A DNA stretch of 64,000 nt from Kordiimonadaceae bacterium (GTDB lineage Bacteria; Pseudomonadota; Alphaproteobacteria; Sphingomonadales; Kordiimonadaceae), in NCBI GenBank assembly GCA_017640725.1, contig JAEPQB010000001.1, forward strand, positions 806,001 to 870,000, in the 5' to 3' direction. Shown here one piece after another: positions 1,685 to 60,599 of the stretch. The stretch's first letter is position 1; each line of letters starts with the position of its first letter. The notes below the pieces were generated by a model, which was given only the letters and a program-made list of their open reading frames with translations, was not told the origin of the DNA and made no database searches. Both the position numbers and the translations under genes were made by a program.

Positions 1685-1696
1685 GGCAACAGGTTC

Positions 1697-2185
1697 ATGA
1701 GTAACTCCATATTTTCCCTTCCCAATCGAAACCCGGTTTTGTTTGCCGGTGTTGCGGCTGCCGTAATCCTTGCAAGCGCCTTTGGCTTTCAGTTTTATGG
1801 GTACCACCCCTGCGACATGTGCTGGTGGCAGCGCTATCCTTATATGGTGGCGATGGGTGTTGCGCTTTTTGCAACCGCCGTGCAGAAAATTCCGCAAAAA
1901 TGGATACTCTTCCTGCTGGCCCTCACGTTTGCGGTAGACGCCGGGCTCGCCATGTTTCATGTGGGCGTAGAACAGCGCTGGTGGGAAGGCATCAGCACCT
2001 GCTCGGGCATGGTTGGCGTCACTGACAGCGTGAATGACGCGCTGGACGCCATCATGAATGCGCCACTTATTCGCTGCGACGAAATAGCATGGTCCTTGTT
2101 CGGCATATCCATGGCAGGCTATAACTTCCTCCTGGCAACGGGTTTGACCGTGTTTTGCGTCAGCAAAGCACGCCAAGCCAAGTAG
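1697..2185 (+). CDS. dsbB: Disulfide bond formation protein B
   Basis: A 162-residue four-helix inner-membrane protein of the DsbB family, which reoxidises DsbA and passes electrons to quinone. The first periplasmic loop carries the active pair in YHPCDMCWWQRYPY (about residues 35-48), with the Arg that follows in DsbB proteins. The second pair appears as ISTCSG and LIRCDE in the second periplasmic loop. Four hydrophobic segments are visible. It lies between the yqaA-like gene (12-nt gap) and coq7 (28-nt gap) on the same strand. Pairing with a ubiquinone biosynthesis gene makes sense because DsbB donates electrons to ubiquinone, though that link is inference. Confidence 0.92.
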   Translation: MSNSIFSLPNRNPVLFAGVAAAVILASAFGFQFYGYHPCDMCWWQRYPYMVAMGVALFATAVQKIPQKWILFLLALTFAVDAGLAMFHVGVEQRWWEGISTCSGMVGVTDSVNDALDAIMNAPLIRCDEIAWSLFGISMAGYNFLLATGLTVFCVSKARQAK

Positions 2186-2213
2186 GCCAGATAAATCGAC
2201 TAGGACCTCCAAG

Positions 2214-2780
2214 ATGGCTGACACCAAAAACGATCCTGAGACACGCCCCCTGCCCGGCGACCGCACGCTTGACCAGGAAATTGAGCGCATGGTGAGGGTG
2301 GATCACGCTGGCGAGTTTGGGGCTGTACGCATTTATGCCGGTCAGCGCGCCATTATGGGAGATGATCACCCAAAGGCAGGTCTTCTCAGGCACATGCATG
2401 AGCAGGAAAAGGTGCATCTGGACCGGTTTAACAAAATCATCAACGAGCGCGATGTGCGCCCCACCATCATGGCACCCTTGTGGGATATCGCCGGTTTTGC
2501 CCTTGGTGCAACCACGGCCATGATGGGAGACAAGGCGGCCATGGCCTGCACGCAGGCGGTCGAAGAAGTGATCGACGAGCACTATGAAGAACAGCGCCAA
2601 AAGCTGAAGGGCAAAGACCCCGAACTTGAGCAAGTGATCAAGGACTTTCAGGCCGAAGAAGTTGAGCACAAGAAAATCGCAGAAGCCCACGGCGCTGAAG
2701 AAGCCGTTGGTTACCCCGTGCTGTCGGGTGTAATTAAAGCGGGCTGTCGCGCTGCCATCTGGATATCGAAGCGGGTTTGA
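2214..2780 (+). CDS. coq7: Demethoxyubiquinone hydroxylase Coq7
   Basis: A 188-residue di-iron hydroxylase that adds the C6 hydroxyl in ubiquinone synthesis (demethoxyubiquinone to demethylubiquinone). The ligands are plain: RVDHAGEFGAVRIY (first Glu), EQEKVHLDRF (ExxH), an EEVIDEHYEEQ helix and AEEVEHKKIAEAHG (second ExxH). The length is normal for bacterial Coq7, and a C-terminal hydrophobic stretch probably docks it to the membrane. It is the third gene of the yqaA-dsbB-coq7 run, with GACCTCCAAG just before the start. Presence of coq7 implies a ubiquinone-based aerobic respiratory chain. Confidence 0.95.
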   Translation: MADTKNDPETRPLPGDRTLDQEIERMVRVDHAGEFGAVRIYAGQRAIMGDDHPKAGLLRHMHEQEKVHLDRFNKIINERDVRPTIMAPLWDIAGFALGATTAMMGDKAAMACTQAVEEVIDEHYEEQRQKLKGKDPELEQVIKDFQAEEVEHKKIAEAHGAEEAVGYPVLSGVIKAGCRAAIWISKRV

Positions 2781-2803
2781 TAGACCCGCCCTAGTCTGAC
2801 AAT

Positions 2804-3505
2804 TTATCTCAGGATGACCGACCCACGCGGGGTGCGAATGGTCAGCCACATGTTTGGCACACCCGATGGCTGCAGCACGATTGGCAACCGGTTGCTTTCC
2901 ACGAGCTCTTGCAAGCCCGTGACTTGCGGGTTGGCGATCGTCAGCTGCGCAATCTCAGCGCCCTTTGGCGACGTGGCAGCCGGGTGGGGTTCACTGGTCC
3001 ATTTGATGACAAACTGAAACCGGTCAGGGCCAAAGTCAAAGTCCGGCAGCGGCTGCGTCACCCAAGAGAGAGCCGTACCATCCGGCTTGTTACGTCCTCC
3101 CGAATTACGGTCACCAAGGCGCACGCTGGAGAGCGATTGTGGCGGGTTTTCCAGGTCTGCGCCAAATGCAAAACCCACGATATGCTCGCGTGTGAAACGG
3201 CTGGCTATACTGCCAAGCTGTTCGGGCGTGACACCTTTTTGCGGGCCCAAAATTTCTAGGTAAGTACATTCACCAAGCGACACCAGATAGTTCTCGGTCA
3301 GCCCGTTGGTATGCTTGCCGCCGTACTCCGGCTTGATCGAGGTGATCTCCTCAAACCGGGCGACATACTCCTCGAGGTCAGGCACGGCCCAGATTACATG
3401 GTCAAGTGACACACCGGCTTCACCGCACTGATTAGCCTGTGCCTGAACACCAAAACTCAGCCCCATCGCAATCAGAGGCACAACAAACAAAGATTTAAGC
3501 TTCAA
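2804..3505 (-). CDS. Secreted glyoxalase-like (VOC) domain protein
   Basis: A 233-residue exported protein of the glyoxalase-like/VOC type. From a TTG start near 3505 it reads MKLKSLFVVPLIAMGLSFG followed by VQAQA, a standard Sec signal. The mature part opens with VSLDHVIWAVPDLEEYV, the metal-ligand His and first strand typical of the fold, then GGKHTNGLTENYLVSLG and TYLEILGPQ. A longer reading from 3712 would overlap the upstream HNH gene by more than 200 nt and has no signal sequence, so the TTG start, overlapping the HNH stop by 11 nt, is preferred. It is translationally coupled to the HNH gene. Substrate unknown. Confidence 0.75.
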   Translation of the reverse strand: MKLKSLFVVPLIAMGLSFGVQAQANQCGEAGVSLDHVIWAVPDLEEYVARFEEITSIKPEYGGKHTNGLTENYLVSLGECTYLEILGPQKGVTPEQLGSIASRFTREHIVGFAFGADLENPPQSLSSVRLGDRNSGGRNKPDGTALSWVTQPLPDFDFGPDRFQFVIKWTSEPHPAATSPKGAEIAQLTIANPQVTGLQELVESNRLPIVLQPSGVPNMWLTIRTPRGSVILR

Positions 3506-4067
3506 GTTCTGTATCCCAATACAAATAATCCCGCCAACTTTCGTGAAGGTAGTTGGGCGGGAATTGTCGGCCATTGGCGTTGAGTTCATGCGTGGTGGGG
3601 CGATGCGGTTTTCGCCTTGGATACATGGAAGACTCTTTCGGCGTCCTTCCCCCCTTTTTAAGATTACAGGGCGAGCAGGCCGCGGTGATATTTTCCCAAC
3701 TGGTTCGCCCACCCTGACTACGCGGGATCACATGGTCAAACGTCAGTTCATCGGGTGAACCGCAGTACTGGCACGTGAATTTATCCCGAAGGAACAAGTT
3801 AAACCGGGTGAAGGCCGGATATTCTGGTTGGCGAATGTATTTTTTGAGCGCAATCACGCTCGGCAGCGCCACCTTTGTCGAAGGTGAATGCACGCACGTG
3901 TCATATTCTGAAATAATGTTCACTCGATCCAAAAAAACGGCCTTCAGGGCCGTTTGCCAGTTCCAGATACTGAGTGGATAATAACTAAGTGGCCTGTAGT
4001 CGGCATTCAAAACGAGCGCCGGACAGGTCTCTGGCGTAGGCAGTCTGGGCGCGAACGCAACACCCAT
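3495..4067 (-). CDS. HNH endonuclease
   Basis: A 190-residue HNH nuclease with two zinc-binding CxxC pairs (CQYCG near residue 100 and CSPCN near 131) bracketing the catalytic DHVIPRSQGG motif. The N-terminal part (ALVLNADYRPLSYYPLSIW) is the conserved leader of a chromosomal HNH family common in alphaproteobacteria and unrelated to phage or restriction loci. No methylase or phage genes are near, so this looks like a housekeeping copy whose cellular role is not established. A run of Gs (GGGGGAACG) before the ATG serves as ribosome-binding site. Its 3' end overlaps the TTG start of the exported VOC gene. Confidence 0.88.
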   Translation of the reverse strand: MGVAFAPRLPTPETCPALVLNADYRPLSYYPLSIWNWQTALKAVFLDRVNIISEYDTCVHSPSTKVALPSVIALKKYIRQPEYPAFTRFNLFLRDKFTCQYCGSPDELTFDHVIPRSQGGRTSWENITAACSPCNLKKGGRTPKESSMYPRRKPHRPTTHELNANGRQFPPNYLHESWRDYLYWDTELEA

Positions 4068-4289
4068 AGTCGTTCCCCCTGATTATTAGGAAGGAGAGCC
4101 GACGCCCATCATCGGCCCGGATTCCTTCATAAAATTGAAGGCCCTTCCGACATCATCAAGAATCAAGATACAGTGTTACGTGCGTATGACAAGACATTAT
4201 CTAGTGTGAAAAAGTCATAAACGACTCGAAATCGCAAATTTTGCGCAATAAGTGGAAAAATGAACACGACTCGGCCTGTTTAGCCCGAC

Positions 4290-4757
4290 TCACATCTCAG
4301 TTTGCACTATAGCCCAGCGCGCCTGCATATCAGTTTCGCTCAGATCGTCTACTTTATGTTGGATAAACCAGCTGTAGCCAAATGGGTCACTCACCATGCC
4401 GCCCCGATAACCATAGAACTGGTCTTCCACTCCGCGTAGCTCGGAACATCCGCAAGCCACTGCGTGGGCAAAGGTTGCATCAGCGTCTTCCACAACAAGA
4501 GTGAACTTGACGGGAGAGCCGCCAATAGAAACCGGGCTAAGTGCGCCAAAATCGGGCCATTCGTCGGCAAGCATCATTGCTGTTTCCCCGATTTGAATTT
4601 CCGCATGCGCGATTTTGCCGTCGGGGTTTTCGAGGCGCAGCACCTCAGTTGCGCCAAAGGCTTTCTTATAAAAGGCAATCGCCTCGGCAGCCCCTTTGAC
4701 ACAAAAATAAGCGGTTACGCCCATTGGCTTGCTTGGTGTTTTGCTGTCGTCACTCAT
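4290..4757 (-). CDS. PhnB-like VOC family protein
   Basis: A 155-residue VOC-fold protein of the PhnB/YdcJ-like glyoxalase group. Key segments are VTAYFCVKGAAEAIAFYKKAFGA, NPDGKIAHAEIQIGETAMMLAD and DPFGYSWFIQHK, giving the paired beta-alpha-beta-beta-beta modules. The function of most such proteins is unknown; some modify or bind small metabolites or antibiotics. It is transcribed away from the TetR-family gene at 4870, and the 18-bp perfect palindrome at 4827-4844 lies between them, so it is the likely target of that repressor. Confidence 0.85.
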   Translation of the reverse strand: MSDDSKTPSKPMGVTAYFCVKGAAEAIAFYKKAFGATEVLRLENPDGKIAHAEIQIGETAMMLADEWPDFGALSPVSIGGSPVKFTLVVEDADATFAHAVACGCSELRGVEDQFYGYRGGMVSDPFGYSWFIQHKVDDLSETDMQARWAIVQTEM

Positions 4758-4826
4758 GGCCGGGCCCTTTCCTGGGAATATCCATATTGTCTCATCTATA
4801 TTGCTTGTGACCGCAACTCATTTATG

Positions 4827-4844
4827 TTACGTTACGTAACGTAA
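4827..4844. promoter_or_regulatory. Perfect 18-bp palindromic operator
   Basis: TTACGTTACGTAACGTAA reads identically on both strands. It sits in the 112-bp gap between the divergent VOC gene and the TetR-family gene, 26 bp before the TetR start. Its size and position fit a TetR dimer operator; binding itself is inferred. Confidence 0.75.
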
Positions 4845-4869
4845 ATATAAGAGAAAGTCAACACACACC

Positions 4870-5457
4870 GTGACAGCAGAAGAAAACACAAAACAAAGGG
4901 GTCGCCCAAGAAGTGAGGCAACCCGACAAAAAATTATGAGGTCCACCGCTGCCCTCATCCAGGAACGCGGTGTGCCAGGCGTCACGATTGAAGCCGTTGC
5001 GGCGCACGCAGGCGTCGGCAAGCCAACCATTTACCGCTATTGGTCTAATGCACATGAGCTTGCCATGGCCGCGCTGATGGAAGCTGTACCTGAAGCGAAG
5101 CAACCAGGCTCCGATGACCCGATAAAGGCCTTGCAAATGCTCTTGCACGGGGTTGCGTCAACTTTCAACGACCCGGCCGGGAGGCACGTGGCGCTGGCAC
5201 TGGCATCGGCGGACGCCTCAAGCGAAATTGCCAAGGCATTCAGAAGCCATTTCATTCAGTCGCGCCGCAAAGAGGCAGAAGCGCTCTTGTCCCGCGCGAT
5301 CGAAACAAATCGAGTGAACGCAGATATGCGCATCGATTTAACACTCGACATGATTTTTGGTGCAGTGTTGTATCGTCTGCTGATGGGGCATGCCAAGATC
5401 ACGACCAAATTCATGGATGAGCTACTCGCTGCAACTATTGGAAAAACGCATCAATGA
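4870..5457 (+). CDS. TetR/AcrR family repressor
   Basis: A 195-residue TetR-family regulator. The N-terminal helix-turn-helix is clear: RQKIMRSTAALIQERG, then VTIEAVAAHAGVGKPTIYRYW (about residues 38-58). The C-terminal part is an all-helical ligand domain without recognisable specificity. Translation starts at a GTG. It probably represses itself and the divergent VOC gene through the palindrome at 4827-4844. Its stop overlaps the start of the GNAT acetyltransferase by 4 nt (ATGA), so the two are co-translated. Confidence 0.92.
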   Translation: MTAEENTKQRGRPRSEATRQKIMRSTAALIQERGVPGVTIEAVAAHAGVGKPTIYRYWSNAHELAMAALMEAVPEAKQPGSDDPIKALQMLLHGVASTFNDPAGRHVALALASADASSEIAKAFRSHFIQSRRKEAEALLSRAIETNRVNADMRIDLTLDMIFGAVLYRLLMGHAKITTKFMDELLAATIGKTHQ

Positions 5458-5948: not shown

Positions 5949-6261
5949 ATGGATTGTCGACTTTTCCATCTGACTTCAGTTCGCTTTTGACTGCGTCCTT
6001 GAATTCCTTCGGAATCTTATGGAAATCCAAGTCCATCAGGCCTGCAAACATGGCCCAGAGGAAATTGAGCGTAACCGGGTGCCCGGCAGCTTTGACCGCT
6101 AGGAAGGCATCAATTACGCCGTAGTTGACGAGGTCTGCCACAGTCATAATATTGAGTTCATTGAGCTCGCGCTTGGATTTAGGTCCCAGATAGCGAACGC
6201 TGTCAACAGGGTCATCTGGATTCAAGTGAGCACCTAAAGGCATCGGATCAACGGATGACAT
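5938..6261 (-). CDS. TfoX C-terminal domain protein
   Basis: A 107-residue protein made almost entirely of the TfoX C-terminal helix-hairpin-helix-like domain: VRYLGPKSKRELNELNIMTVADL (residues about 22-44) followed by GVIDAFLAVKAAGHPVTLNFLWAMFAGLMDLDF. The N-terminal TfoX domain is absent. In gammaproteobacteria TfoX/Sxy proteins control competence, but stand-alone C-terminal proteins are of unknown role. I chose the ATG at 6261 because GAGG lies a few bases upstream; an upstream ATG at 6288 would add nine residues. It diverges from gluQRS, whose start is 35 bp away. Confidence 0.82.
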   Translation of the reverse strand: MSSVDPMPLGAHLNPDDPVDSVRYLGPKSKRELNELNIMTVADLVNYGVIDAFLAVKAAGHPVTLNFLWAMFAGLMDLDFHKIPKEFKDAVKSELKSDGKVDNPSTD

Positions 6262-6295
6262 TGTCGCCTCGGATAATTGAAGGTACACGCACTGT

Positions 6296-7168
6296 ATGAG
6301 CGGAGGTCTCGCAATTCAATCTGACTTTGTTACCCGGTTTGCGCCCAGCCCAAGCGGCTTGCTGCACAAGGGCCACGCCTACTCTGCCCTGATGGCTTTC
6401 CAGGTAGCTCAGCGGGCGGGAGCCCGGTTTTTATTGCGGATTGAGGATATCGACACCACTCGCTGCAAGCCGGAATTTACAATTGCCATTTATGAAGATC
6501 TGGCATGGCTGGGTATTGCGTGGGAAAAGCCGGTGCGCATTCAGTCTGAGCATTTTGAAGATTATGCCACGGCGCTGGGGCGCCTGAAGGATATGGGGGT
6601 CGTTTACCCCTGCTTCTGCACGCGAAAAGATATTCAGGCAGAAATTGCCAAATCCCCTTCGGCGCCACACGGGCCGGATGGCCCCATTTACCCCGGCACC
6701 TGCCGACCACTTTCAGCAGATGAGCAAGAGGCCCGCATTGCTGCGGGCGAAGCGCACGCCTGGCGGCTGGACCTGAAAGCCGCGCTGGCGATCACGGGCA
6801 ACCAGCTTACATGGCAGGATGAGCACAAAGGGTTGGTAAAAGCCACACCTGAGGAGCTAGGCGATGTGGTACTGGCACGCAAGGATACGCCCACAAGCTA
6901 TCACCTTTCTGTGGTGCACGACGACGCGCTGCAAGGCATCACCCACATTGTGCGCGGCGAAGACCTTTGGCACGCCACGCACATTCATGTGGTGCTGCAA
7001 AAGCTGCTCGGCTACCCGACTCCAACCTACAGCCACCATCGCCTGCTGACCGATGAGCATGGCAAACGCTTCGCCAAACGCGACAAAGCGCTCACGCTGC
7101 GCGCCATTCGAGATAGCGGTGTGGGTGCAGATGAATTGATAAAATCGTTGCGGCTGGATCCCGGTTAA
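6296..7168 (+). CDS. gluQRS: Glutamyl-Q tRNA(Asp) synthetase
   Basis: A 290-residue truncated glutamyl-tRNA synthetase paralogue that attaches glutamate to the queuosine base of tRNA-Asp. The class I HIGH-like motif is in FAPSPSGLLHKGHAYSA (residues 14-30) and the KMSKS equivalent is KRFAKRDKALTLR near the C-terminus. A zinc site is suggested by CFCTRK and YPGTCR. The anticodon-binding domain is missing, as expected for this family. The stop overlaps the convergent beta-helix gene by 4 bp. Confidence 0.93.
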   Translation: MSGGLAIQSDFVTRFAPSPSGLLHKGHAYSALMAFQVAQRAGARFLLRIEDIDTTRCKPEFTIAIYEDLAWLGIAWEKPVRIQSEHFEDYATALGRLKDMGVVYPCFCTRKDIQAEIAKSPSAPHGPDGPIYPGTCRPLSADEQEARIAAGEAHAWRLDLKAALAITGNQLTWQDEHKGLVKATPEELGDVVLARKDTPTSYHLSVVHDDALQGITHIVRGEDLWHATHIHVVLQKLLGYPTPTYSHHRLLTDEHGKRFAKRDKALTLRAIRDSGVGADELIKSLRLDPG

Positions 7169-8157
7169 CGGCTGCGTTGGGTCAGGTCCACTTTCGGCAG
7201 TTCCGGGGCGTCGGGCCAGTTCAGATCACCGCGGCTATCAAAGAAATAATTGCTGCCGGACCAGTCATATTCGATGTCCCCGACGATCACATTACCCGCC
7301 AGTTCAGGGCCCGCCAGCCCTTCCAGAAGATTGATGAATTTGGAGCCGCCTTCGCGGTCAGAAACGATGATGTTTTTCTCAAGCCGCAGGGAGTTTTTCT
7401 CAAACCGCGTGCCTTCAACGCCAAACGACAAAATAAACCAGTTTTCCGTATTGGCCCCTTCAACCAGCAAGCTGTTGCGCACAATCGCGCGTCCGCCGTT
7501 CGGGATATCAATCAGGTAACTGTCATTACCTTCAAGCGAGGCCACCACGCTGTTTTCAACGAGAATGTATTTTGCCCGAATCTTGAGGCCGTGGCCATGA
7601 TCGTGCGAACCGATAATGCGCGTACGGCGAACAATCACCTGCTGCGCGCCGCTCACATAGACGCCGTGGGCCCGGCCCGCCTTGCCATTGCCTTCAAAGA
7701 TGCTGTCTTCGATCAGGATTTTGTTGGCTCGGTCCCATGTCAGAATACCGTTTTCATTGTGCGAAAAATTGACCTTGCGAAGGGTCAAATCGCCGCTTTC
7801 CAAGCGCACACACGCGCCGTTCCGGCTTCTGACCGCTACATTCTTGCATTCAATGGAATCGATCGTGATGCCATCCGATTGGATAACAAATGTCGCCTTT
7901 CCGCCAACAGAGGCCCCGTCAAAAATCACACCGGGTGCGCCAATGATTAAAACACCGTCTTTGCCCTTTTTCAGGGTCGCGCCCTCGTGGTACATGCCCG
8001 GCTCCAACCGGATGATGCCACCAGGGTTGACCCGGTCGAATGCCGTTTGCAGGTCTGGTTGCAGAACGCCGTCTGCATAAATCGCCCCCGCCTGCGCATT
8101 TGCAGAAGCGGTCAGTCCGGCGGCAAAAGCCAAAGTCAGAAGCAAACGTTTGATCAT
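7165..8157 (-). CDS. Secreted right-handed parallel beta-helix protein
   Basis: A 330-residue exported protein. MIKRLLLTLAFAAGLTASANAQA is a textbook signal peptide, which is why the ATG at 8157 is chosen over one 99 nt upstream. The mature protein opens with YADGVLQPDLQTAFDRVNPGGIIRLEPGMYHEG, the usual cap of pectate-lyase-like beta-helix proteins, and continues with regular hydrophobic rungs (FVIQSDGITIDSIE, LRLEKNIIVSD and similar). No catalytic residues of a known polysaccharide lyase are obvious. It could be a carbohydrate-active enzyme or an envelope structural protein. It stands alone between gluQRS and the HIG1-like gene. Confidence 0.82.
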   Translation of the reverse strand: MIKRLLLTLAFAAGLTASANAQAGAIYADGVLQPDLQTAFDRVNPGGIIRLEPGMYHEGATLKKGKDGVLIIGAPGVIFDGASVGGKATFVIQSDGITIDSIECKNVAVRSRNGACVRLESGDLTLRKVNFSHNENGILTWDRANKILIEDSIFEGNGKAGRAHGVYVSGAQQVIVRRTRIIGSHDHGHGLKIRAKYILVENSVVASLEGNDSYLIDIPNGGRAIVRNSLLVEGANTENWFILSFGVEGTRFEKNSLRLEKNIIVSDREGGSKFINLLEGLAGPELAGNVIVGDIEYDWSGSNYFFDSRGDLNWPDAPELPKVDLTQRSR

Positions 8158-8274
8158 TGTGTCGATCCGTGTTGAGACAAGGTGTCGCGCCCAGTAGGGC
8201 AGTGGATATAAGTCATTGCCGCACGGGCGCTGACCAGTATAGTAGCGGCCTATCATGATTCAAGTGAGTCTAAC

Positions 8275-8463
8275 ATGAACATATTCTTCATATTGGCGCT
8301 GCTCGCGGCTCTGGGTTCATTGTTCACAGTTTTCGCTGGAACAATCAACATGGCACGCGGTTCCCAACAAGACCGAAAAAACAGCAACAAATTGATGCAG
8401 TTGCGCGTGGGATTGCAAGCGTGCGCTGTTTTGTTTGCTGCAATAGCCTTTTCCAGCGACTAG
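8275..8463 (+). CDS. HIG1-like two-helix membrane protein
   Basis: A 62-residue protein with two hydrophobic helices (residues about 3-26 and 43-60) joined by a charged loop. The loop-to-helix junction NKLMQLRVGLQACAV matches the pattern of the HIG1 family (LMxxRVxxQ), whose members associate with cytochrome oxidase; in bacteria their role is less clear. It lies just before the cobalamin adenosyltransferase and ETF genes, an arrangement repeated in many alphaproteobacteria. It is separated from the adenosyltransferase by 6 nt and probably cotranscribed. Confidence 0.72.
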   Translation: MNIFFILALLAALGSLFTVFAGTINMARGSQQDRKNSNKLMQLRVGLQACAVLFAAIAFSSD

Positions 8464-26545: not shown

Positions 26546-27634
26546 CTACTCTGATTTTCCGTTGATGACGGGATACCCCATGTTCATCCAGCCGAAGATG
26601 CCTTCATACATGGTTGCAGTGCGGGTGAACCCTCGGCTGCGCAGTCGGGATATGACATCGTCTGCCGCAGCCCTTGGGCACGAGCAATAGGCAACAATCT
26701 GCACATCCTTCGGCAGATCACCCACAACATCATCAAGATCCACATAATAAGGAAGCGGCACCGCTCCTTCGATGTGCACACGCTGCCAAACCGATGTAAC
26801 GCGTGTGTCCAACAGGACCATACGTTTTTTCTCTTCAAGAGCGACCAAAAGGTCTGCTGCAGAAACGTAAAGGCCGTCCTGAAGGTCAAATTCCGGGTCC
26901 GCACCATTTTTGTTAATCACATATTGATCTGGCATTGGCACGTCGCGCAGCACCACTTTGGACTGCTGCCATCCCATGGCGCGGCTGCGCAAAAAGGCGG
27001 TAAGGCCGTCAATCTCATCAGATGTCAGTCTGTCTTTCCAGGCCTCCATCGGCGTGCCGTCACGGCCTTCCCGGATAGCGTACCGGATGAATTCGTCCGA
27101 GTTATGCGACAGCGCTGATGGATTGCCGAGAGCCGGTGCAGTTACGCCCTCACCGTTCACCCCGTGGCATTCCGTGCAGTTTTCTGCGTACAAGTCTGCG
27201 CCTCTTGTGGCATCACCCTGAACCAAATCTTTGGTTATGCGTACGCGCTTCGTATCCGCCTGCCAGAAAAGCCAGTAGGTGAGGTCCCAGGTTTCATCCA
27301 ACGTTAGCGGTCCGCCAACCTCGTCAAGGTACCCTCCCATCGGTGTGCCATCACGGCCATATTGGATGGGGCGCAGCACTTCATGTGGCACGCCGGAACT
27401 GAAAAGGCTTTTACTGCGCAGCGACGGCGCGTGATCATTCACATACCCTTGCCGGTCCGCACCGTGGCAAAGCGAGCAGTAGCGCTGGTAATTGGCTGCG
27501 GCCTGCGCGGACTGTTCGTCTGTCAGCTTGCGCGGATCCCGGATGGTTCGATAGTCGTAGTCTTCAGAAACAGCTGCTGATTCTGCGGCCAAGAGCAGGC
27601 CAAAAAAGAGGCTTAAAAGGGTGTGGATGCGCAC
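26546..27634 (-). CDS. Dihaem c-type cytochrome fused to rhodanese
   Basis: A 362-residue exported fusion. After the signal peptide come two class I cytochrome c domains with haem motifs CSLCHG (residues about 53-58) and CTECHG (about 155-160), each with a following Met in GTPM that could be the sixth ligand. The C-terminal third is a rhodanese domain with LLDTRVTSVWQRVHIEGAVPLPYY and the active Cys in VAYCSCPRAAADDV. The combination suggests periplasmic sulfur transfer coupled to electron transport, as in thiosulfate or sulfide handling. No sox genes are nearby. It stands alone and converges on the VOC gene. Confidence 0.85.
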   Translation of the reverse strand: MRIHTLLSLFFGLLLAAESAAVSEDYDYRTIRDPRKLTDEQSAQAAANYQRYCSLCHGADRQGYVNDHAPSLRSKSLFSSGVPHEVLRPIQYGRDGTPMGGYLDEVGGPLTLDETWDLTYWLFWQADTKRVRITKDLVQGDATRGADLYAENCTECHGVNGEGVTAPALGNPSALSHNSDEFIRYAIREGRDGTPMEAWKDRLTSDEIDGLTAFLRSRAMGWQQSKVVLRDVPMPDQYVINKNGADPEFDLQDGLYVSAADLLVALEEKKRMVLLDTRVTSVWQRVHIEGAVPLPYYVDLDDVVGDLPKDVQIVAYCSCPRAAADDVISRLRSRGFTRTATMYEGIFGWMNMGYPVINGKSE

Positions 27635-40407: not shown

Positions 40408-42249
40408 CTAGCCCGACGCCAATTGGAGCTTTGGGGTGGAGTGTGCGACGGAGTCTGTACTTTGCACGTCTTGGACTTGTTCAAGAAAACGGGCCACAGT
40501 TTCGCGCAAGTTTTTGGATTGAGTGCTCATCTCCGCCGAAGCCGATTGAACCTTTGCAGCGGCATTTTCGGTTTCTTCGGCGGCGCTATCAACTTGCTCA
40601 ATATTTTGCGTGACTTCCAAGGTCCCACTGGCAACCTCATCGACACTTCTGGCAATTTCCTGTGTCGCGACACCTTGCTCTTCAACGGCTGCCGAAATGC
40701 CCGTAGAAATTTCATTCGTTTCTTCAATGGTGTTGCGAATGTGTTCTACCTTCGAAGCAACTGAGTCCGTCTCTTTTTGAATACTCGCAATTTGCGAACT
40801 GATTTGCTCAGTTGCACTTGAAGTTTGGGAGGCCAGACTTTTCACTTCACTCGCGACAACTGCAAATCCCCGGCCTGCATCACCTGCGCGGGCCGCCTCA
40901 ATCGTGGCGTTGAGTGCCAGCAAATTGGTTTGCTCTGCAATATCCGTGATCAGGTCGACAATCGTTCCAATGCTGTCGGCCGCTTCAACCAGATTTTGAA
41001 TAAGGCTGTTCGCCTCTTCCGACTGGACGACCGCGCCGCTCGAGATTTTTGCAGACTTTGTAACCTGCTGAGAAATTTCGAGAATGGAGTTAGATAGTTG
41101 ATCGGCGGCAGACGCAACGGTTTGTACGCTGTTAGACGCTCGGCCTGATGCAGAGCTGGTTCCTTCAGCCAATGATTTGGTTTGGTTTGCTGCCCCTTTC
41201 ATGCCGTCTGCCAGTGTACCAACTTCGTCAACGGCAGCAGTGACCGATGCTAGGATGGAGTTGGAATCCTGCCTGAACTGCTCCGCCAGCTGCTCAATTT
41301 TTTGCGCTCTTTCTGCTTGTATCGCCTGTTGCTGCTCGCGTTGCTGCTGGATCTTCGCCTGCTCTTCCAACTTCTGTTGCTCAGCCTCGACTTTAGAAGC
41401 TTGCAGGGCCTCCTGTTCTTTGCGCAGCTCCTCGGCTTCAATCATGCCTTTCCGAAAAACCTCTACGGCTCCGGACATTTCACCAATTTCGTCTTTGCGC
41501 CCAAGCCCTTCAACTTGAACTTCCAGGTCACCTTTTGCCAAGTCAGACATAATGCCGGTTAGACTGACAATTGGAGCGGAAATCAGACCGCCAATGAAAC
41601 GCGCCGCAAAAACACCAACGATGATGGAGATAAGCAACGTCAACCCGACCGCCCAATAGGTTGCAGAGACAACAAAATCGTTCTCTGCTTTGCGCTCGGC
41701 CATCAACCGTTCTTCGATGCCCGCAAACTCAGCCATGATGGACCTGAATTTGTCGAAATAGGTTTTGCCGCGGGCTTCCCCTACCAACTGAGCGATATCG
41801 TCCATGGTCAGGTCCGCGCCAACGCGGCGACGAGTGGCAATTGCTGCATCTGCAATTTCGGTCTGCCAGGCACGCAAAGTCGTCTCGGCTTCCCTCAATC
41901 GCTCGACTTGTGGTGGGTTGTCGCTAACCGTAGCGCGCAGGTCCGCAAGCTTTTTATAAGCAACCTGCTCACCCCAGTTGTATGGCTCAAGAAACTGGTC
42001 TTTCCCTGCCAAAAGAAAGCCCCGCATACCCGTTTCCATATCCACCGCGGCGCCAACTATCGATCCCACTTCCGCAAGGACGACGCGTGTGTGGTCCACC
42101 CATTTGGCTTTGTCGACAATACTCAGCAGGTTAAAGGTTGTAATTGCGGCTAGAATGACAGTGAAAACCAGCGGCAGCACGCCAGCCAGCATGGTCTTGT
42201 GTTGTGTTTTTAGATTAGTGAAGCTACCCACGGCAGGACCCCCAAACAT
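40408..42249 (-). CDS. Methyl-accepting chemotaxis protein, CHASE3-HAMP
   Basis: A 613-residue chemoreceptor. TM1 is at residues about 20-40 ([15 protein letters not shown]), a periplasmic CHASE3 domain follows ([20 protein letters not shown]), TM2 is [19 protein letters not shown], then HAMP, a Gln/Glu-rich coiled coil (about residues 290-330) and the signalling domain with its hairpin tip [20 protein letters not shown]. No CheR-binding pentapeptide is visible at the C-terminus. The ATG at 42249 is chosen because upstream codons add about 94 residues without family similarity. Confidence 0.92.
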
Positions 42250-42721
42250 TGTTTCAGTCGTGTTTGTGCAAAACTCAAAACATATGTCGCTTCCCTGGCG
42301 CAGAACGTGATCACAAAACCTTAATAAATACCTAATGAGCTGGAATAACACCGTGTTCGGCGTTAAGAAATTCCCTCTTGTCCCTTCAAACGTGTAGGCG
42401 CAAAACCAGAAAGTGTATTTCATGCGACATGCATTCTTGTTGGCGGCCGGACGGCGAAATCCATTACCAGTAGATTCGATGCCTTTGCAAAACCGGTACA
42501 AACGGGTGGCGAGCCATATGATGCCGACCAATTTGTGCGGACGGAGTAACCCTAAGAATGGCGGGCATGATCGAAAACCAGGAGCTCAATCCGTCTGCGT
42601 TGGTGGTCCCGGAGTTTGCTCATGTGCTCAATGCATCGGGTGAAGAGTTATTTCTCTTTGGCCGAAAAGCTCTTGAAATTTTGCGATCACAATATTGGTA
42701 ACAGGTTACCAACCAAAGACC
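42250..42721. other. 472-bp intergenic region, chemoreceptor to Sel1 gene
   Basis: This gap contains the promoter of the chemoreceptor and the 3' end of the Sel1 gene transcript. Only short overlapping frames on either strand cross it and none resembles a known protein. The only clear structure is a palindrome at 42695-42712. I see no RNA gene. Confidence 0.5.
42695..42712. other. 18-bp palindrome after the Sel1 gene
   Basis: TTGGTAAC and GTTACCAA (8-bp perfect arms) flank AG, 10 bp after the Sel1 stop. No T-run follows on either strand, so it does not look like a standard terminator; it could be a protein-binding site. Confidence 0.4.
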
Positions 42722-48790: not shown

Positions 48791-50401
48791 CTAGAGCTTG
48801 TCGATTTCCTCCATAAACGAACTGGTGCCGGTTTCCAGTTCTCCGGACAAGCCAGACAAAATGCCAGCTTGGCCGCTAAGATCGGAGATCTTGGTCGCCA
48901 TCTGGCTCATGGCCTCAAACATCATTGAAACATTCTGGGACACTTCCGTGGTTCCATTTGCGGTTTCCTGGATGTTGCTGCTGATCTCGCGGGTGGCGGC
49001 ATTTTGCTCGGAAACCGAACTCGCAATACCGGACGCGATGGAGTGCAGTTCTGCAATCAATTTCGAAATGCCCGCAATTGAGTCCACAGACTTTTCCGTG
49101 GCTTCCTGAATGGCTTTAACCTGAGACGAGATTTCGTCTGTTGAGTTGGCGGTTTGCGTCGCCAGCGACTTCACTTCAGAGGCAACCACGGCAAAGCCCT
49201 TGCCGGCGTCGCCTGCTCTCGCCGCCTCGATGGTAGCGTTCAAGGCGAGCAGGTTAGTTTGCTCCGCAATGTCATTGATGATTTCAACAACATCGCCAAT
49301 TTTTGTGGACGCTTCTCTTAACCCACCAACAACTTCAGAAGTTTCTTCTGCAGCGGTCACCGCGCCCTCGGACATGCTGGATGAGCGTTCAACCTGACGG
49401 GCAATCTCTTCAATAGATGCGTTCAGCTCTTCAGCGGCACCTGCGACAGCCTGCACTGTTGATGTGGACTCTTCCGCAGCCGCGCTGATGGTTTGCATAC
49501 GACCGGACAAATCGGCCGAGCCTTCTTCAAGGCCAGCGGCGCTGCTGGTGAGGTCCTGAGAGCTGTCAGATACAGTCGAAACAGCTGCACCAACTTCACC
49601 GCGGAATTTGGCACTTAATTGTTCCAGGTTGGTGCGCCGGGTCCAGTTCACCATGGGCGCTATATACTTGCCGTCAGAATCGTAAATTGCACTCACATTC
49701 AGGTCGAGAGTTTCCGGGCCCACCTTGATCCGCGCTTTATGAGGCAGATTGGATGGGTCTGAAAGCATGCGTTGTTGATGCTCCGGGTGCTTGTGGAAAA
49801 CATCTATCGAGGACCCTTTCATCTCGCTCACTTTAATCGGTAGATGCTCCTCAATTTCCCGCAGCGTATCTTCACTTGTCTTGTTCAGATAGTTGATTTC
49901 CCAGGTGTCTTTGTCGCATGCCATCACATTGATCGGCATTTGATCGAGCATTGAGAGCAGACGCTCCGCCTCTTTTTCCGCCATGACTTGTTTGGTGATC
50001 AACTGCCAGGTCAGCATCGGTCCTGTGTAGACGCCCTGTTCGTCGTACAGGGCCGTTATTTCGAGCCGCAGGTGCTCATCTCCAAGCTGAATACGGGCGG
50101 TGTGCGGAAGGTTACGCGGATCATTCAATATGCCGCGTTGGTATTCTGGTTTCTTATGAAAGACATCAATCGAGCTGCCGACCATCTGATCAACCATAAT
50201 GGGGAGTTCATGCTCAATCGCGCGCAGCGTCGCCTTGCAGGACTCGTTCATATAGGTAATTTCGAAATCCGGCAGCGTACACACCATAATGTTGGCAGGC
50301 ATCACATCCAACACAGACCGAGCATCAAAACTAACGTTACTATTTGGCGCCCCTGATGCGACGCCCTCCGGTTCGTTACTTCTTTTCAACAAATCAAACA
50401 T
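48791..50401 (-). CDS. Cytosolic double-PAS methyl-accepting chemoreceptor
   Basis: A 536-residue chemoreceptor without transmembrane segments. Two PAS-like domains are tandem duplicates: [20 protein letters not shown] in the first and [20 protein letters not shown] in the second, at about residues 75-95 and 195-215. The signalling domain follows with tip [28 protein letters not shown] before the ATG is a good ribosome-binding site. It sits 57 nt after the BLUF hybrid kinase, so the two may share a transcript, which suggests control of motility by light or redox state. Confidence 0.9.
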
Positions 50402-50458
50402 TGTGTGGTCCTCCAGTAATATCGGTCTTGCGAACGCCTGGCAGCTGGGGCGCATTTG

Positions 50459-52723
50459 TTAGCTGGACCGTCGTTCCTTGCCCCGTGGCAGCGCGGTCGC
50501 GCCCGGGAACTCCAAAATTCGCTTTTCCGGTTTCTTTTCTGCTTGTTCGAGAGCTTTTAGGAATCCCTGCAGCAGAGCCGGTGGGGTGAATGGTTTGCCA
50601 ATGTGACTGTTCATGCCGGCTGTTCGGTATCGCTCGATGTCGTCCGGGAAAACATTGGCAGTGAGGGCAATGATGGGGGTTGACCGGTTGGGCCCTTTTG
50701 ATGACCTAACCTCTTCTGCCACCTGAAGCCCGGTGAGCTTCGGCATATTTACGTCGAGAACCAGCAGGTCGTACCGCTCGGCAAGCGCCGACTGCAGGGC
50801 TTTTTCTCCGTCAGTCGCCAACTCAAATTGAATGTCTTCGGACTCGAGGACCGCAGCGAGATAGCGGGCATTCACAGCATTGTCTTCCGCGACAAGAATA
50901 CGCAGCTGCTTCAGAGATTGACTGCCTTGGCTTTTTTGGTCGTGCTCAATCCTGTCCGCGCGGCGTCGATTTCCAAGGCTCAGTGGCAACGTAACAGTAA
51001 ATTTGCTGCCCACGCCCTCTGTGCTTTTCAGCGCGATCTTACCGTCTAGGTCGCTCGTTAACTCTGAAACAATCGCCAGTCCAAGGCCAACGCCTGTGTA
51101 ATTTCCGCTGGAGCATTCACCTATCTGCTCAAACTTCTCGAAAATTCGCTTTTGATTCGCTTCGGAAATGCCGACGCCCTGGTCTTCTACACTCAACCGA
51201 AATTCCACATACTTCTCGTCCAGGCCTGCTTCCGCAGACAGGGACACAACAACATCGCCCTGCAGCGAGTATTTGATCGCATTATTGATCAGGTTGTAGG
51301 CGATTTGCGTGATGCGCTGGCGATCACCGACAAACGGGCGGCGGGCAGATGGTTCGACATGCAACATCAGCCTGAGGCCTTTGTCTTTGGCATGGTTCAT
51401 CAATGCACCAACGACTGAGTCGACTATTTTGACAGCATCAATTTGACGACGAGAAACAGGCAGGGTGCCAGACTGCGCCTTGGACAGATACAAAGCGCCT
51501 TCAACAACATTTTCCAGATGATTGGCGCAAAAGCTGATTTCGTCGAGCTGCTTGGCAAAACGAGGGTCGTCATTGCTGTCTTGCAATAAGGACAATTGCC
51601 CCACAATACCCGTTAAGGGCGTTCTGATTTCGTGGCTTAATTTTGCAAGATAATCGATTTTTTCAGAGATTATGTCTCGCGATTGTTGCAGATGCTTTTC
51701 CAGCTCCAGTTTTAATGTAGTCTCTTCCGTAATGTCCTGATGCGTGCCAACCAGTCTGACGGGATTGCCATCGGTATCGCGTTCACAGATTTGGCCGCGG
51801 CATCGCACGAACTTCTGTTCACCGCCCTGGCAAGTCATCCTGACCGTGACATCGTAGGTACTGCTTTTTCCGGACAAATAATCTGTCAAAGCAGACTCTG
51901 CGGCGGGTAAGTCGTCTGGATGCACCAATTCCTGCCACAGGCTAAAACTGGGCCTGTGGTCGCGCGGGTTAAGTCCAAGCATGGTCAGCCAGCGCTCGTT
52001 GGTCACAACATTGGTGGTGCCAATTTCCCAGTCATAGAGCGCAAGTTCGCCGCCTGCCAGCGCCGCTTCCAGACGCCTTTTGGCCTCGGTTTGCTGGCGA
52101 ATGGAAGCACTCAGTTTTCGGGTAACGCTGATGGCGTCATTGGCAAGTCCATCCACAGAAGCGCTGCCCCCGTGCAACTGATTTTGAACGTCTGGTGCTT
52201 CTGCATTAGCTGACCCAAAGAAGGGTTCATCCTGCGCGTTGAACAGGTCCTTGTCGTTTAAATAGCTTTCTATGATCGCGATCAGGGCCAGCGCATTTTC
52301 CTGCCGCCCGGTATCAGAGGATTCTGTGCGAATACGCTCCACGATAAGCGGCACCAAGCCGCCAATCTGCGGCATGAATTGCCGCAGCGGCCACATGGGA
52401 AAACAGCGGCTCTGGACGGTTCGATCCAGAACCGTAAATACACTGTGGTGCGCTTCGTCCTCGCTTATCCGGTCGATGATTGCTTTTACGGCCACGGGCG
52501 TGCCTTCAAGCAGTTGAAAGAAGGTGCGATTTTGCGCAATCAAAATGCCGGTAATACCATTGGCCCGGTTGTTTCGGTCGGCTTGGTGACGGATACGTGC
52601 AAGCAGTTCTTGGGAAATGTCTTCGTGGCAAACACTGACATAAGCGACCTGCTGAATGTCTGATGCTTCAGTATTTCGGCCCTCCAGAAACCGCGCGCTG
52701 AACGATCTGTCAATTGTGTTCAT
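50459..52723 (-). CDS. BLUF-PAS hybrid histidine kinase/response regulator
   Basis: A 754-residue hybrid sensor kinase. Residues about 24-115 are a BLUF blue-light domain: Tyr28 in QVAYVSV, Asn51/52 in RNNRANGITG and Gln70 in FFQLLEG match the flavin-contact residues; Trp111 is present in FPMWPLRQF, but the position where many BLUF proteins have Met is Leu113. A PAS domain (about 220-335) follows, then the phosphoacceptor His364 in KLSHEIRTPL, an ATPase domain with NLINNAIKYS and DQGVGIS, and a receiver with Asp657 in LLVLDVNMP. It is soluble. Start at 52723 gives MNTIDRSFSA; a longer frame lacks similarity. It precedes a cytosolic chemoreceptor. Confidence 0.88.
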   Translation of the reverse strand: MNTIDRSFSARFLEGRNTEASDIQQVAYVSVCHEDISQELLARIRHQADRNNRANGITGILIAQNRTFFQLLEGTPVAVKAIIDRISEDEAHHSVFTVLDRTVQSRCFPMWPLRQFMPQIGGLVPLIVERIRTESSDTGRQENALALIAIIESYLNDKDLFNAQDEPFFGSANAEAPDVQNQLHGGSASVDGLANDAISVTRKLSASIRQQTEAKRRLEAALAGGELALYDWEIGTTNVVTNERWLTMLGLNPRDHRPSFSLWQELVHPDDLPAAESALTDYLSGKSSTYDVTVRMTCQGGEQKFVRCRGQICERDTDGNPVRLVGTHQDITEETTLKLELEKHLQQSRDIISEKIDYLAKLSHEIRTPLTGIVGQLSLLQDSNDDPRFAKQLDEISFCANHLENVVEGALYLSKAQSGTLPVSRRQIDAVKIVDSVVGALMNHAKDKGLRLMLHVEPSARRPFVGDRQRITQIAYNLINNAIKYSLQGDVVVSLSAEAGLDEKYVEFRLSVEDQGVGISEANQKRIFEKFEQIGECSSGNYTGVGLGLAIVSELTSDLDGKIALKSTEGVGSKFTVTLPLSLGNRRRADRIEHDQKSQGSQSLKQLRILVAEDNAVNARYLAAVLESEDIQFELATDGEKALQSALAERYDLLVLDVNMPKLTGLQVAEEVRSSKGPNRSTPIIALTANVFPDDIERYRTAGMNSHIGKPFTPPALLQGFLKALEQAEKKPEKRILEFPGATALPRGKERRSS

Positions 52724-53115
52724 TTGCCAAGCCGCACCAATCAAAATTGCTCTCGACCCCCACACGCACGGTGGCAGACTGGCGAAACTTTAAGTGTGTA
52801 AAATTGTAACAATTTGTAATTTGCGGGCGGCTGGAATTCTGTACCCTATTACATTTTGAGGCTGAGCGTTCGAGACAAAAGACCTTAAATACTTTTATTT
52901 TTCAGCAATTTATTAAAATTGGCGCGAGCCAAAAGTGGAGTAACACAGCGTATTCAAGCTACATTTTAAAGTTGTGCTTTAGTCTGAAAAGACATGCTGA
53001 TTTTAAGGCCAGAGTACAGCAGAAACAAAAATAGCTTCCATGAAGGGTCCGTGACCCCCTTCACAACAAAAAACGCGACTCGCGTATCATTTTTGGGCGC
53101 GGCCGACCAATCACC
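52724..53115. other. 392-bp intergenic region upstream of the BLUF kinase
   Basis: AT-rich DNA holding the promoter of the BLUF kinase and the terminator of the PD40 gene at 53073-53085. A second short stem near 53042-53062 (GAAGGG with CCCTTC) lies beyond that terminator. No gene or RNA was recognised. Confidence 0.5.
53066..53086 (-). terminator. Terminator after the third PD40 gene
   Basis: On the minus strand ACGCG-AGT-CGCGT (53085-53073) is followed by a T-run, 31 nt after the PD40 stop. It is a compact rho-independent terminator. Confidence 0.75.
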
Positions 53116-54027
53116 CTATTGGCTGCGATACCGGTCCAGGATTTGCGCATCAACCCACATGATGTCGTTTCCGCGCGTAAAAAAGAAATACTTCCCATCG
53201 GGCGTAACCATCGGGCAATAATCGATGCCGTCGGTGTTAATCTCAGGGCCCATATTCACGCCCTGGCTCCAGGTGCCGTCCTCGCCCTTGAAACTGATAT
53301 AAAGGTCGCCGTCACCGAAACCGTCAGGTCGGGCGGCTGACACATGAATGATGTAGCTCTCGTCCGGGCTCACATATATGTCGCCTTCGTCCACATCACT
53401 ATTGATGCTGGGTCCCAAATTCACAGGTGTTTCAAATTTGCCGTCAACATATTGAGCCCGATAGCTGTCACGCGCGCCAATCGTGTCATCCCTAACAGCT
53501 GAGAAATAGAGGCTGCCATCACCAACCAACATCGGATACAGCTCGTGGCCGGGGCCGTTGATGTGTGCGCCCAGGGGTTCCGGATCATGCAGGCCCTCGG
53601 GGGTGATGCGGCTGCGCCAGATATTCAGGCGCTCCAACGAATAGCCTTTGAGCGGACGATCAGAGATGAAATAAAGCCACGCACCATCCGGCGAAAACGC
53701 CATATCCACATCGCTGTGGCCAGGAAATGTTTTGGATAGGGGGGCCATGCGTGGCTTCTGCCAGGTGCCATCGGCACGGCGAAAACTGAAATACATCTTG
53801 AATTCCCCATCCACCACTCGCGAGAACATGAAGATGCGCCCATCCGGCGAGAATACGGAATTGAGCTCCCGCTCGCCGTCGAGCGAAATGAGGCCGGGAG
53901 CAAAAATCTGAGGTGTGGTGCCTGGCACTTCTTGCCCCAGATAGTCGCCTTTGAGTTCTGGCCATTCGTCTTGTGCCAAAGCTGGCAGACTAAAAAGAAT
54001 AGAAGCAAGCAAAGCATTACGTATCAT
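53116..54027 (-). CDS. Secreted PD40 beta-propeller protein (copy 3)
   Basis: A 303-residue exported PD40 protein. The signal is MIRNALLASILFSLPALAQ. The shared motif appears as GDYLGQEVPGTTPQIFAPG, followed by blades FSPDGRIFMFSRV, FSPDGAWLYFISDRP, VSPDESYIIHVSAAR, GFGDGDLYISFKGEDGTWS and TPDGKYFFFTRGN. GGGGGTCGTC precedes the ATG; an ATG 24 nt upstream lacks that. It is distant from the 14-18 kb cluster but has the same architecture. It follows the alpha/beta hydrolase gene by 193 nt on the same strand. Confidence 0.8.
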   Translation of the reverse strand: MIRNALLASILFSLPALAQDEWPELKGDYLGQEVPGTTPQIFAPGLISLDGERELNSVFSPDGRIFMFSRVVDGEFKMYFSFRRADGTWQKPRMAPLSKTFPGHSDVDMAFSPDGAWLYFISDRPLKGYSLERLNIWRSRITPEGLHDPEPLGAHINGPGHELYPMLVGDGSLYFSAVRDDTIGARDSYRAQYVDGKFETPVNLGPSINSDVDEGDIYVSPDESYIIHVSAARPDGFGDGDLYISFKGEDGTWSQGVNMGPEINTDGIDYCPMVTPDGKYFFFTRGNDIMWVDAQILDRYRSQ

Positions 54028-54220
54028 GACGACCCCCAAGGAAATTTTCATGGCCACAATCAAGCCGACCGCACGTGAGAATGTCAATGCTCGAGGCACT
54101 TCCAGCGCACAGTGTCAATGGTGCCGTGCATTGTCGGTCAATGTCTTGCTGTGGTCAGCTGCATCTGGGCCGTTCCCTGCAATAACCGCTCGGTGAATTG
54201 GTGTGTTGAGGCTAGAAAAC

Positions 54221-56998: not shown

Positions 56999-57096
56999 AC
57001 TTTGCTTCGCCTATCTTAGTTATTTCCTGTTTTCCAGTTAATAAGAATGCCTGCATAGAAGCGAGACTTATTTCTGCGTTCGCCCAAAACAATTGC

Positions 57097-57162
57097 CTAA
57101 ATCCCGCCGTTCTTCAGCGCTTCAACCAGCTTGATGCCTTCGGGCTTGTCCCACACGAGCGG
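57097..57162 (-). pseudogene. Remnant of a tlpA 3' end
   Basis: The 66 nt encode PLVWDKPEGIKLVEALKNGG plus Ile and a stop, nearly the same as the last 21 codons of tlpA at 60012-60077 (60 of 66 bases match, counted by eye). No start or upstream homology remains. Together the two copies bound the thiol-redox block, which suggests duplication or insertion at this site. Confidence 0.8.
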
Positions 57163-57236
57163 GACGAAGGGCGATGGAGCAAACATAGGCACAAAAAATG
57201 TAGGCTGAGGTTTCCCCCTGAGCCCACATCTGTTTT

Positions 57237-60011: not shown

Positions 60012-60599
60012 CTAAATCTCGCCATTCTTCAGCGCTTCAAACAGCTTGATGCCTTCGGGTTTGTCCCACGCGAGTGGTCCGAGGTACAGCGCGCGCACCT
60101 CGCCGGCTTTATCCACCACAAAGCTGGTGGGCAGCGCGCCTTCGGCGAGGTCAAACGCAATCGCCATGGTTGGCTCTGCATAAAGCGCGAGGCCCTCTAC
60201 GCCCCATTCCTTTAGCGTTTCTTCGGCCTGGCGGATGCCGCCGCGGTCCACGTTAATGGCGATCACTTCAAACGTGTCGTCGCCCAATACTTTCTGCACA
60301 TGCGCGAGTTCTTTCATCTCTGCCCGGCACGGAGCGCACCAGGGCGCCCACAAGTTGATGAGCATGGCCTTGCCCTTCATGGCCGAAAGCTTTTTGGGCT
60401 CCCCGGTTTCCGCCATGATGATATGGTCCGAGAGCATTTGTGTGGTCTCCGGAACCGTCAAAGCCGCCATTTCACCGGTCAGGTATGGCTGGATGCTGCC
60501 GCCTGCCGCGGGCTCTTCATTACCTGGCGCAATAAACACCATAGTCGCGACCGCAATAGCGACGGCAAAACCGATCAGGAAACCACTTTTTTTGTTCAT
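60012..60599 (-). CDS. tlpA: TlpA-type thiol:disulfide oxidoreductase
   Basis: A 195-residue periplasmic thioredoxin-fold protein with an N-terminal membrane anchor (GFLIGFAVAIAVATMVFIAPG). The active site is LWAPWCAPCRAEMKELAHV with CAPC, and the cis-Pro region is ALPTSFVVDKAGEV. Such proteins reduce disulfides for cytochrome c or oxidase maturation. Its start is 151 bp from the divergent argH. Its last 66 nt have a duplicate at 57097-57162. Confidence 0.88.
   Translation of the reverse strand: MNKKSGFLIGFAVAIAVATMVFIAPGNEEPAAGGSIQPYLTGEMAALTVPETTQMLSDHIIMAETGEPKKLSAMKGKAMLINLWAPWCAPCRAEMKELAHVQKVLGDDTFEVIAINVDRGGIRQAEETLKEWGVEGLALYAEPTMAIAFDLAEGALPTSFVVDKAGEVRALYLGPLAWDKPEGIKLFEALKNGEI

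Follow-up and report, generated by a model that had tools for sequence, protein, structure and literature searches.

A BLUF hybrid histidine kinase gene followed by a predicted double heme-PAS chemoreceptor gene in a Kordiimonadaceae bacterium

BLUF photoreceptors differ in their outputs, and those of BlrP1 and OaPAC belong among the EAL, cyclase, SCHIC or stand-alone BLUF types. The roles of AppA, PixD (Slr1694) and YcgF are described in an excerpt of PMC5812497, and the available part of a review states that BLUF units also occur in sensor kinases, whose characterisation lags (PMC6798134). Among the chemoreceptors, Aer2 carries HAMP domains, the heme ligand of the Pseudomonas aeruginosa Aer2 is His234, and IcpB of Azorhizobium has an N-terminal heme PAS domain (all from an excerpt of PMC13401364); in Agrobacterium, four receptors have two PAS domains, and their function is given as unknown in the part of PMC10851874 that was available. 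Here, we describe two adjacent minus-strand genes at positions 48791–52723 of a 64,000-nucleotide stretch, hereafter referred to as the window, from a Kordiimonadaceae bacterium (assembly GCA_017640725.1, contig JAEPQB010000001.1, positions 806,001 to 870,000). The first gene encodes a BLUF hybrid histidine kinase, and the second encodes a soluble chemoreceptor with two PAS domains. We consider, with a probability of roughly 0.58, that they form a two-gene, probably co-transcribed sensory unit of a blue-light kinase and an oxygen receptor, the outputs of which (a phosphorelay and CheA, respectively) are separate.

The earlier note on this DNA had read the locus as BLUF, PAS, histidine kinase and receiver domains followed, after 57 nucleotides (nt), by a same-strand, soluble, double-PAS chemoreceptor; the coordinates, the Pfam domains, the hydropathy and the matches to Aer2 structures all agree with that description. 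In the kinase, the BLUF profile PF04940 was matched far above chance (E = 1.3e-22; 80.1 bits against a cut-off of 25, and 84.4 bits in the whole-genome search), which settles the profile check proposed in the note. PAS_3 (residues 240–328), HisKA (357–419), HATPase_c (466–582) and Response_reg (609–719) were all above their cut-offs, and residues 1–133 matched Slr1694 (PixD), Tll0078, AppA and the photoactivated cyclases in the PDB. The motifs of the kinase core are complete (SHEIRTP at 363 with the phospho-acceptor His364, NNAIKYS at 480 and GVGLGL at 544), and the receiver carries LDVNMP at 656 (Asp657) and GKPF at 709 (Lys710). The protein thus possesses the HisKA His, the HATPase boxes, and the receiver Asp and Lys of a hybrid histidine kinase. 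No Hpt domain was found within it by Pfam. The best 19-residue hydropathy means are 0.96 for the kinase and 1.24 for the receptor; by this measure, no membrane segment is present in either.

To describe the BLUF residues, 89 rows were aligned, and the removal of repeats and of rows shorter than 70 residues left 77 unique rows, which represent the kinase's own genome and selected loci obtained when the family, the class and the phylum were searched as given below (a subset of all the matches). Tyr and Gln are the photocycle residues of BLUF domains, Asn is a flavin contact, and the Trp/Met pair is semi-conserved. In the kinase, Tyr28 is kept (Tyr in 73 of the 77 domains), as are Gln70 (75) and Trp111 (74); Asn51 and Asn52 are both present, the second of them being Asn in 76 of the 77. 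The alignment therefore bears out the residues named in the earlier note, and from them the domain would be expected to bind flavin adenine dinucleotide and to undergo a light-driven red shift. Leu113, just past the end of the Pfam match, stands at the usual place of Met, where the 77 domains show 68 Met, 6 Leu (its own included) and 3 gaps. The note was right that Leu replaces the common Met, which, it suggested, could alter the photocycle. As a strong claim, a special photocycle marked by Leu113 was rejected, since the same residue is found in 5 further BLUF domains, two of which (L134 and L135) have AppA-like tails as judged by eye.

The nature of the receptor's PAS pair was missed by the earlier note, and it is this pair that leads us to predict a blue-light and oxygen gene pair. 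When compared with the PDB by phmmer, PAS1 matched 6ceq (1.9e-12), 4hi4 (5.3e-10) and 3vol (3e-9), together with one ribosomal chain at 0.055 that was taken as chance; PAS2 matched the same three (4.2e-14, 7.2e-14 and 2e-13, respectively) and no further chain at E 0.01. The sole confident PDB matches of both domains are thus Aer2 heme-PAS structures, which come from Vibrio cholerae and P. aeruginosa (an excerpt of PMC8694187 gives the species of 6ceq and 3vol). In the alignment, His82 of PAS1 and His203 of PAS2 fall at the place of the P. aeruginosa heme ligand His234. The pocket residues of Aer2, which we take to be Leu264 and Trp283 in agreement with the alignment, are kept as Leu113 and Trp132 in PAS1 and as Leu234 and Trp253 in PAS2, so that the proximal His and the Leu/Trp pocket of the Aer2 type are found in both domains. 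On the basis of these residues and of the confinement of confident matches to Aer2, we predict a cytosolic oxygen receptor with two heme-PAS domains, which would bind heme and O2. An AlphaFold2 model of PAS2 with PAS1 as the only partner showed a PAS-like order of elements, with a mean pLDDT (predicted local distance difference test score) of 57, too weak for a fold search.

A Pfam scan of the receptor in its 554-residue form gave MCPsignal (E = 9.6e-36) and PAS_8 for the second PAS domain only (26.6 bits against a cut-off of 21.8); no HAMP domain was found by Pfam at E 0.01. The NCBIfam model for the Vibrio Aer2, NF041847, spans both PAS domains (best stretch 39–257) with 239.6 bits, below its cut-off of 1200. 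Because no HAMP domain was detected and this cut-off was not reached, the receptor, as judged by profiles, is not Aer2 in the strict sense.

Relatives that span the two PAS domains as well as the signalling tip were found in 9 of 28 family genomes (G087, G055, G104, G061, G096, G043, G064, G082 and G034), with identities of 34–45%; two additional matches (G055 and G061) start only at residues 145 and 136. Among 10 aligned relatives, Trp is kept in both PAS domains of all, and His is conserved in both domains of 8. The G034 relative (L150, 5649–7244) has Ile at both heme-His places and Ile for the PAS1 Leu, with both Trp kept, and perhaps holds a different ligand or cofactor; the second, shorter-matching G055 protein has Asp at the PAS1 His place, and the G082 relative has Met for the PAS2 Leu. 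Among the plasmids, 40 records matched the PAS pair, including chemoreceptors and EAL proteins. Seventeen of them are Agrobacterium plasmid records, those listed being about 50% identical, and an Indioceanicola plasmid neighbourhood, read by its annotation, has other chemoreceptors and no BLUF listed; a Vibrio neighbourhood carries no annotation.

The arrangement of the two genes is summarized in Table 1. A convergent gene stands 34 nt behind the pair, and a terminator-like stem-loop (53085–53073) sits behind the upstream gene; no minus-strand signal of this kind was found within the 57-nt gap. Given the common strand, the short GGAGG-bearing gap, the stem-loop upstream and the convergent gene behind, the kinase and the receptor could make up an operon of their own.

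Table 1. Positions of the gene pair, its domains and its spacers in the window
Feature	Position	Strand	Details
BLUF-PAS-HisKA-HATPase_c-REC hybrid histidine kinase	50459..52723	minus	754 amino acids; Pfam and motifs
Hybrid kinase start	ATG at 52723	minus	in-frame GTG upstream at 52765
BLUF domain, kinase residues 24–112	52388..52654	minus	Pfam PF04940, PDB matches, residue census
Soluble double-PAS methyl-accepting chemoreceptor	48791..50401	minus	536 amino acids; Pfam, hydropathy, Aer2-structure matches
Chemoreceptor start	ATG with GGAGG upstream	minus	alternative in-frame ATG at 50455, giving the 554-residue form
Receptor PAS1, predicted Aer2-type heme PAS	49982..50332	minus	His82, Leu113, Trp132
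Receptor PAS2, predicted Aer2-type heme PAS	49616..49981	minus	His203, Leu234, Trp253
Intergenic gap	50402..50458	minus	57 nt; contains GGAGG, a ribosome-binding-like site for the receptor
Upstream spacer	52724..53115	minus	392 nt; terminator-like stem-loops 53085–53073 and 52932–52919; one promoter-like site 52990–52963

Six Hpt matches exist in the genome, among which are two stand-alone Hpt proteins and one CheA-like protein; the latter has Hpt, H-kinase_dim and HATPase domains (604 residues of a 1039-residue frame were scanned). With these partners at hand, the two pathways may be drawn as follows, although from the photon or O2 onward we infer every step. Excitation of the flavin in the BLUF domain would be passed through the linker and the PAS domain to the HisKA/HATPase core of the cytosolic kinase, and the resulting change in the core would alter phosphotransfer to its own receiver and then to a separate Hpt protein and a response regulator. 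In the receptor, a b-heme in each of the two Aer2-type PAS domains would bind O2, and the signalling tip would bias CheA. The kinase and the receptor would be linked by shared expression and physiology, light plus oxygen being a photo-oxidative risk, rather than by a physical or phosphoryl link; through their joint expression, a cell in lit, oxic surroundings might adjust both its gene expression and its swimming.

The recurrence of the pair was examined by searching for the BLUF profile in four sets of genomes, each including the window's own. BLUF matches were found in 18 of 29 family genomes (all 38 matches listed), 56 of 385 class genomes (all 81 listed), 211 of 396 order genomes and 119 of 398 phylum genomes. 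In the order search, the kinase's own BLUF domain lies outside the matches listed, so that others of its type may have gone unseen there; among the phylum matches listed, 5 longer frames were read, with most frames of about 290–424 residues left out of the reading. In the class search, the 10 other matches over the cut-off in frames of at least 290 residues were compared, including a stop-broken frame of G374 that was read in pieces. The domains were checked by phmmer with the kinase's own domains, by which a distant type of kinase could be missed. Within this scope (for the order and the phylum, among the matches listed), no second BLUF-PAS-histidine kinase-receiver protein was found among the frames read. 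One other long frame of the family, with 840 residues in G082 (L143, 3246–5753, contig 394), has the reverse build of HisKA/HATPase, receiver and BLUF, and the Trp/Met end of its BLUF domain does not align.

The whole kinase was searched for as well. Every one of 296 order genomes, with 3 candidates scored for each, was matched in the kinase core, and among the matches listed none other than its own starts before residue 163; one of the best matches listed, a 534-residue protein of G029, corresponds to the PAS-histidine kinase-receiver part only, with 37% identity. A scan of the genome contigs with the kinase yielded at least 10 loci, none of those listed matching ahead of residue 155. Among the best 5000 plasmid records, none covers 80% of the kinase, and the 32 plasmid records that matched residues 1–233 all did so in the BLUF part only. 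The statement of the earlier note that BLUF hybrid kinases are uncommon thus holds for the sampled genomes as well.

Several of these and related results weigh against a linked unit. The pair was found in no other sampled genome (for the order and the phylum, among the matches listed), so selection for the linkage lacks support, and the same two genes are adjacent in the window's own genome only. BLUF matches are absent altogether from five of the nine genomes that hold a double-PAS receptor relative (G087, G061, G096, G043 and G064). In three others, BLUF lies elsewhere: G055 and G104 each have a single BLUF on a contig other than that of the receptor relative, and G034 has two BLUFs, the nearer at a distance of 140 kilobases (kb). 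Neither of the two BLUFs of G082 shares a contig with the receptor relative, but one lies at a contig end and the contig of the receptor relative spans just 3.2 kb, so that the genes might still be adjacent in this genome. As far as it goes, this check of adjacency in relatives speaks against the suggestion of the earlier note that the locus is a single unit which joins blue light to a phosphorelay and to chemotaxis, although it is not decisive, no second kinase having been found. That suggestion has adjacency in one genome as its basis and is not supported. The transcription signals are also of limited value. Promoter-like sites occur at chance level in the region (4 found against 3.8 expected, the minus-strand upstream site among them), and the terminator-like signals (10 found against 5.2 expected) lie partly in genes; they carry little weight because the kinase gene itself also contains such hits on its own strand. 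Finally, the BLUF domain is divergent: in a tree of the 77 domains it stands alone on a long branch, placed nowhere with support (end branch 1.82 against a median of 0.42), Leu replaces Met, and its nearest relative, a short BLUF protein of the own genome, is 39% identical.

This last point might suggest that the BLUF domain has lost its photoreceptor function and that its fold serves dimerisation or redox sensing. Since Tyr28, Asn52, Gln70 and Trp111 are all kept and Leu recurs at the Met place elsewhere, we regard this explanation as very improbable. A more serious rival is that the two genes are chance neighbours, each sensor serving a separate task and perhaps having a promoter to itself, and the chromosomal setting bears on it. 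The upstream PD40 gene (53116–54099) has relatives of 83–85% identity in G029, G052 and G067, and genes of the 60–63 kb region of the window are conserved beside it in G067 and G052; the cytochrome c/rhodanese gene at 26546–27634 has relatives of 85–88% in the same three genomes. The distance between the two is 25.5 kb here and 2.4 kb (G029), 1.1 kb (G052) and 7.0 kb (G067) there. No relatives of the kinase, the receptor or an amidohydrolase were found in the 18–20 kb examined from each of the three, and an AraC-type gene has just one 28% match in one of them. The 25.5-kb stretch also encodes an amine oxidase, a TetR regulator (a second is below the cut-offs), an OprB porin and a second chemoreceptor of the CHASE3-HAMP-MCP type (40408–42531, minus strand). 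We call it a variable stretch rather than an island, because its composition is no outlier (guanine-cytosine content of 0.495–0.545 over 28–54 kb) and there is no tRNA gene in the window. Chance neighbours are expected in a stretch whose gene content differs among close relatives, and the presence there of another chemoreceptor fits this explanation. So do the contexts of the receptor relatives: in the flanks taken from eight of the nine genomes (the whole contig of G082 being 3.2 kb long), the scanned neighbours are unrelated genes, such as SspB and fumarase (G087), sigma factors (G055 and G061), an SSF transporter and a TonB receptor (G043), and DUF885 (G104). The common strand, the 57-nt gap, and the terminator-like signal that precedes the pair and has no minus-strand counterpart in the gap speak the other way, and we consider mere neighbourhood unlikely, yet the alternative to be taken most seriously.

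Stronger forms of linkage were also considered. The pair might act as a coincidence module for light and oxygen, the signals of the BLUF kinase and the heme receptor being combined through phosphoryl or expression cross-talk so that cells leave places both lit and oxic; we think this improbable. The kinase might instead act directly on the receptor array, for example by receiver-CheA phosphoryl exchange or competition with CheY, so that light changes the O2 response. The gene order, the lack of an Hpt domain in the hybrid kinase, and the occurrence of links between light receptors and chemoreceptors in another family (12 PYP-MCP fusions in the available part of PMC12826048) are in favour of such tight coupling. 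The pair is not conserved, however, and the stand-alone Hpt proteins of the genome are more ordinary partners. Furthermore, we know of no domain for direct contact between such a kinase and the receptor array. A direct action of this kind appears quite improbable to us, and any coupling of light to chemotaxis is unproven. A probably co-transcribed unit with separate outputs is the reading that we prefer.

Other BLUF loci and one repeat were observed in the course of this work. Among 82 BLUF loci (some overlapping, mostly with 1.5-kb flanks), one besides that of the window, L139 (G345, contig 5), has an MCP signalling domain nearby; the window's short locus in this set, L005, stops before the receptor. 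In the receiver-BLUF protein of L139 (4634–5593), the BLUF domain carries Phe in place of Tyr and Glu in place of Gln, and a convergent frame with the MCP signalling domain (6249–8456) lies about 0.65 kb from the gene; this BLUF close to a chemoreceptor may be blind to light. In the window's own genome (L158, contig 7, 32000–41000), two short BLUF proteins are encoded in a row on the minus strand (4710–5156 and 4145–4615), followed on the same strand by a thymidylate synthase (3245–4039) and a histidine kinase (1299–3182). L153 (7176–10532, G680) and L154 (3947–7264, G806) encode proteins of more than 1100 residues, in which a C-terminal BLUF is preceded by a substrate-binding-protein-like part, PAS, GGDEF and EAL (judged by eye). 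In the window, a sequence of about 70–100 bases occurs at 57095–57167 and 60012–60116 and has two matching places in each of the G067 and G052 stretches; by these matches, it is a small dispersed repeat.

The kinase is soluble, motif-complete and compact, and it could make BLUF-to-kinase signalling testable. If its neighbour is an O2 receptor, light and oxygen, two ingredients of photo-oxidative stress, would be sensed from one transcript; as independent neighbours, the two would still be a useful pair of parts, yet an ordinary one. In the literature within our scope, which excludes subscription papers and was partly available as excerpts, we recognised no description of such a kinase and receptor pair and no characterised BLUF kinase. 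As judged from the sampled genomes, each part is of a known kind, and the combination was not found elsewhere.

When compared with the known systems, the kinase resembles AppA, PixD (Slr1694), YcgF/BlrP1 and OaPAC in the kept Tyr, Asn, Gln and Trp positions of the BLUF domain; it differs in the output, which is PAS-HisKA-HATPase-REC here and EAL, cyclase, SCHIC or stand-alone there. As in the LOV, phytochrome and little-studied BLUF kinases, a light module feeds a histidine kinase, but here the BLUF domain is N-terminal and the kinase is a cytosolic hybrid with a receiver. The receptor shares with Aer2 of Vibrio cholerae, V. vulnificus and Pseudomonas the heme-PAS domains, with their His, Leu and Trp places, ahead of the signalling tip, whereas it has no detected HAMP domain and remains far below the NCBIfam cut-off. 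In the simple cytosolic PAS-MCP build it is like IcpB, compared by description and not by sequence, and the Agrobacterium double-PAS receptors, set beside the plasmid matches by description only, have a similar build; in the available parts of the sources, none of these is reported beside a photoreceptor. The nearest parallel to the pair as a whole is provided by the PYP-MCP fusions and the pyp operons, in which a blue-light receptor is genetically linked to a chemoreceptor (PMC12826048, as available in part). There, the light domain is a PYP fused to the MCP, whereas here the BLUF domain belongs to a separate kinase and the MCP carries PAS domains of the predicted heme type.

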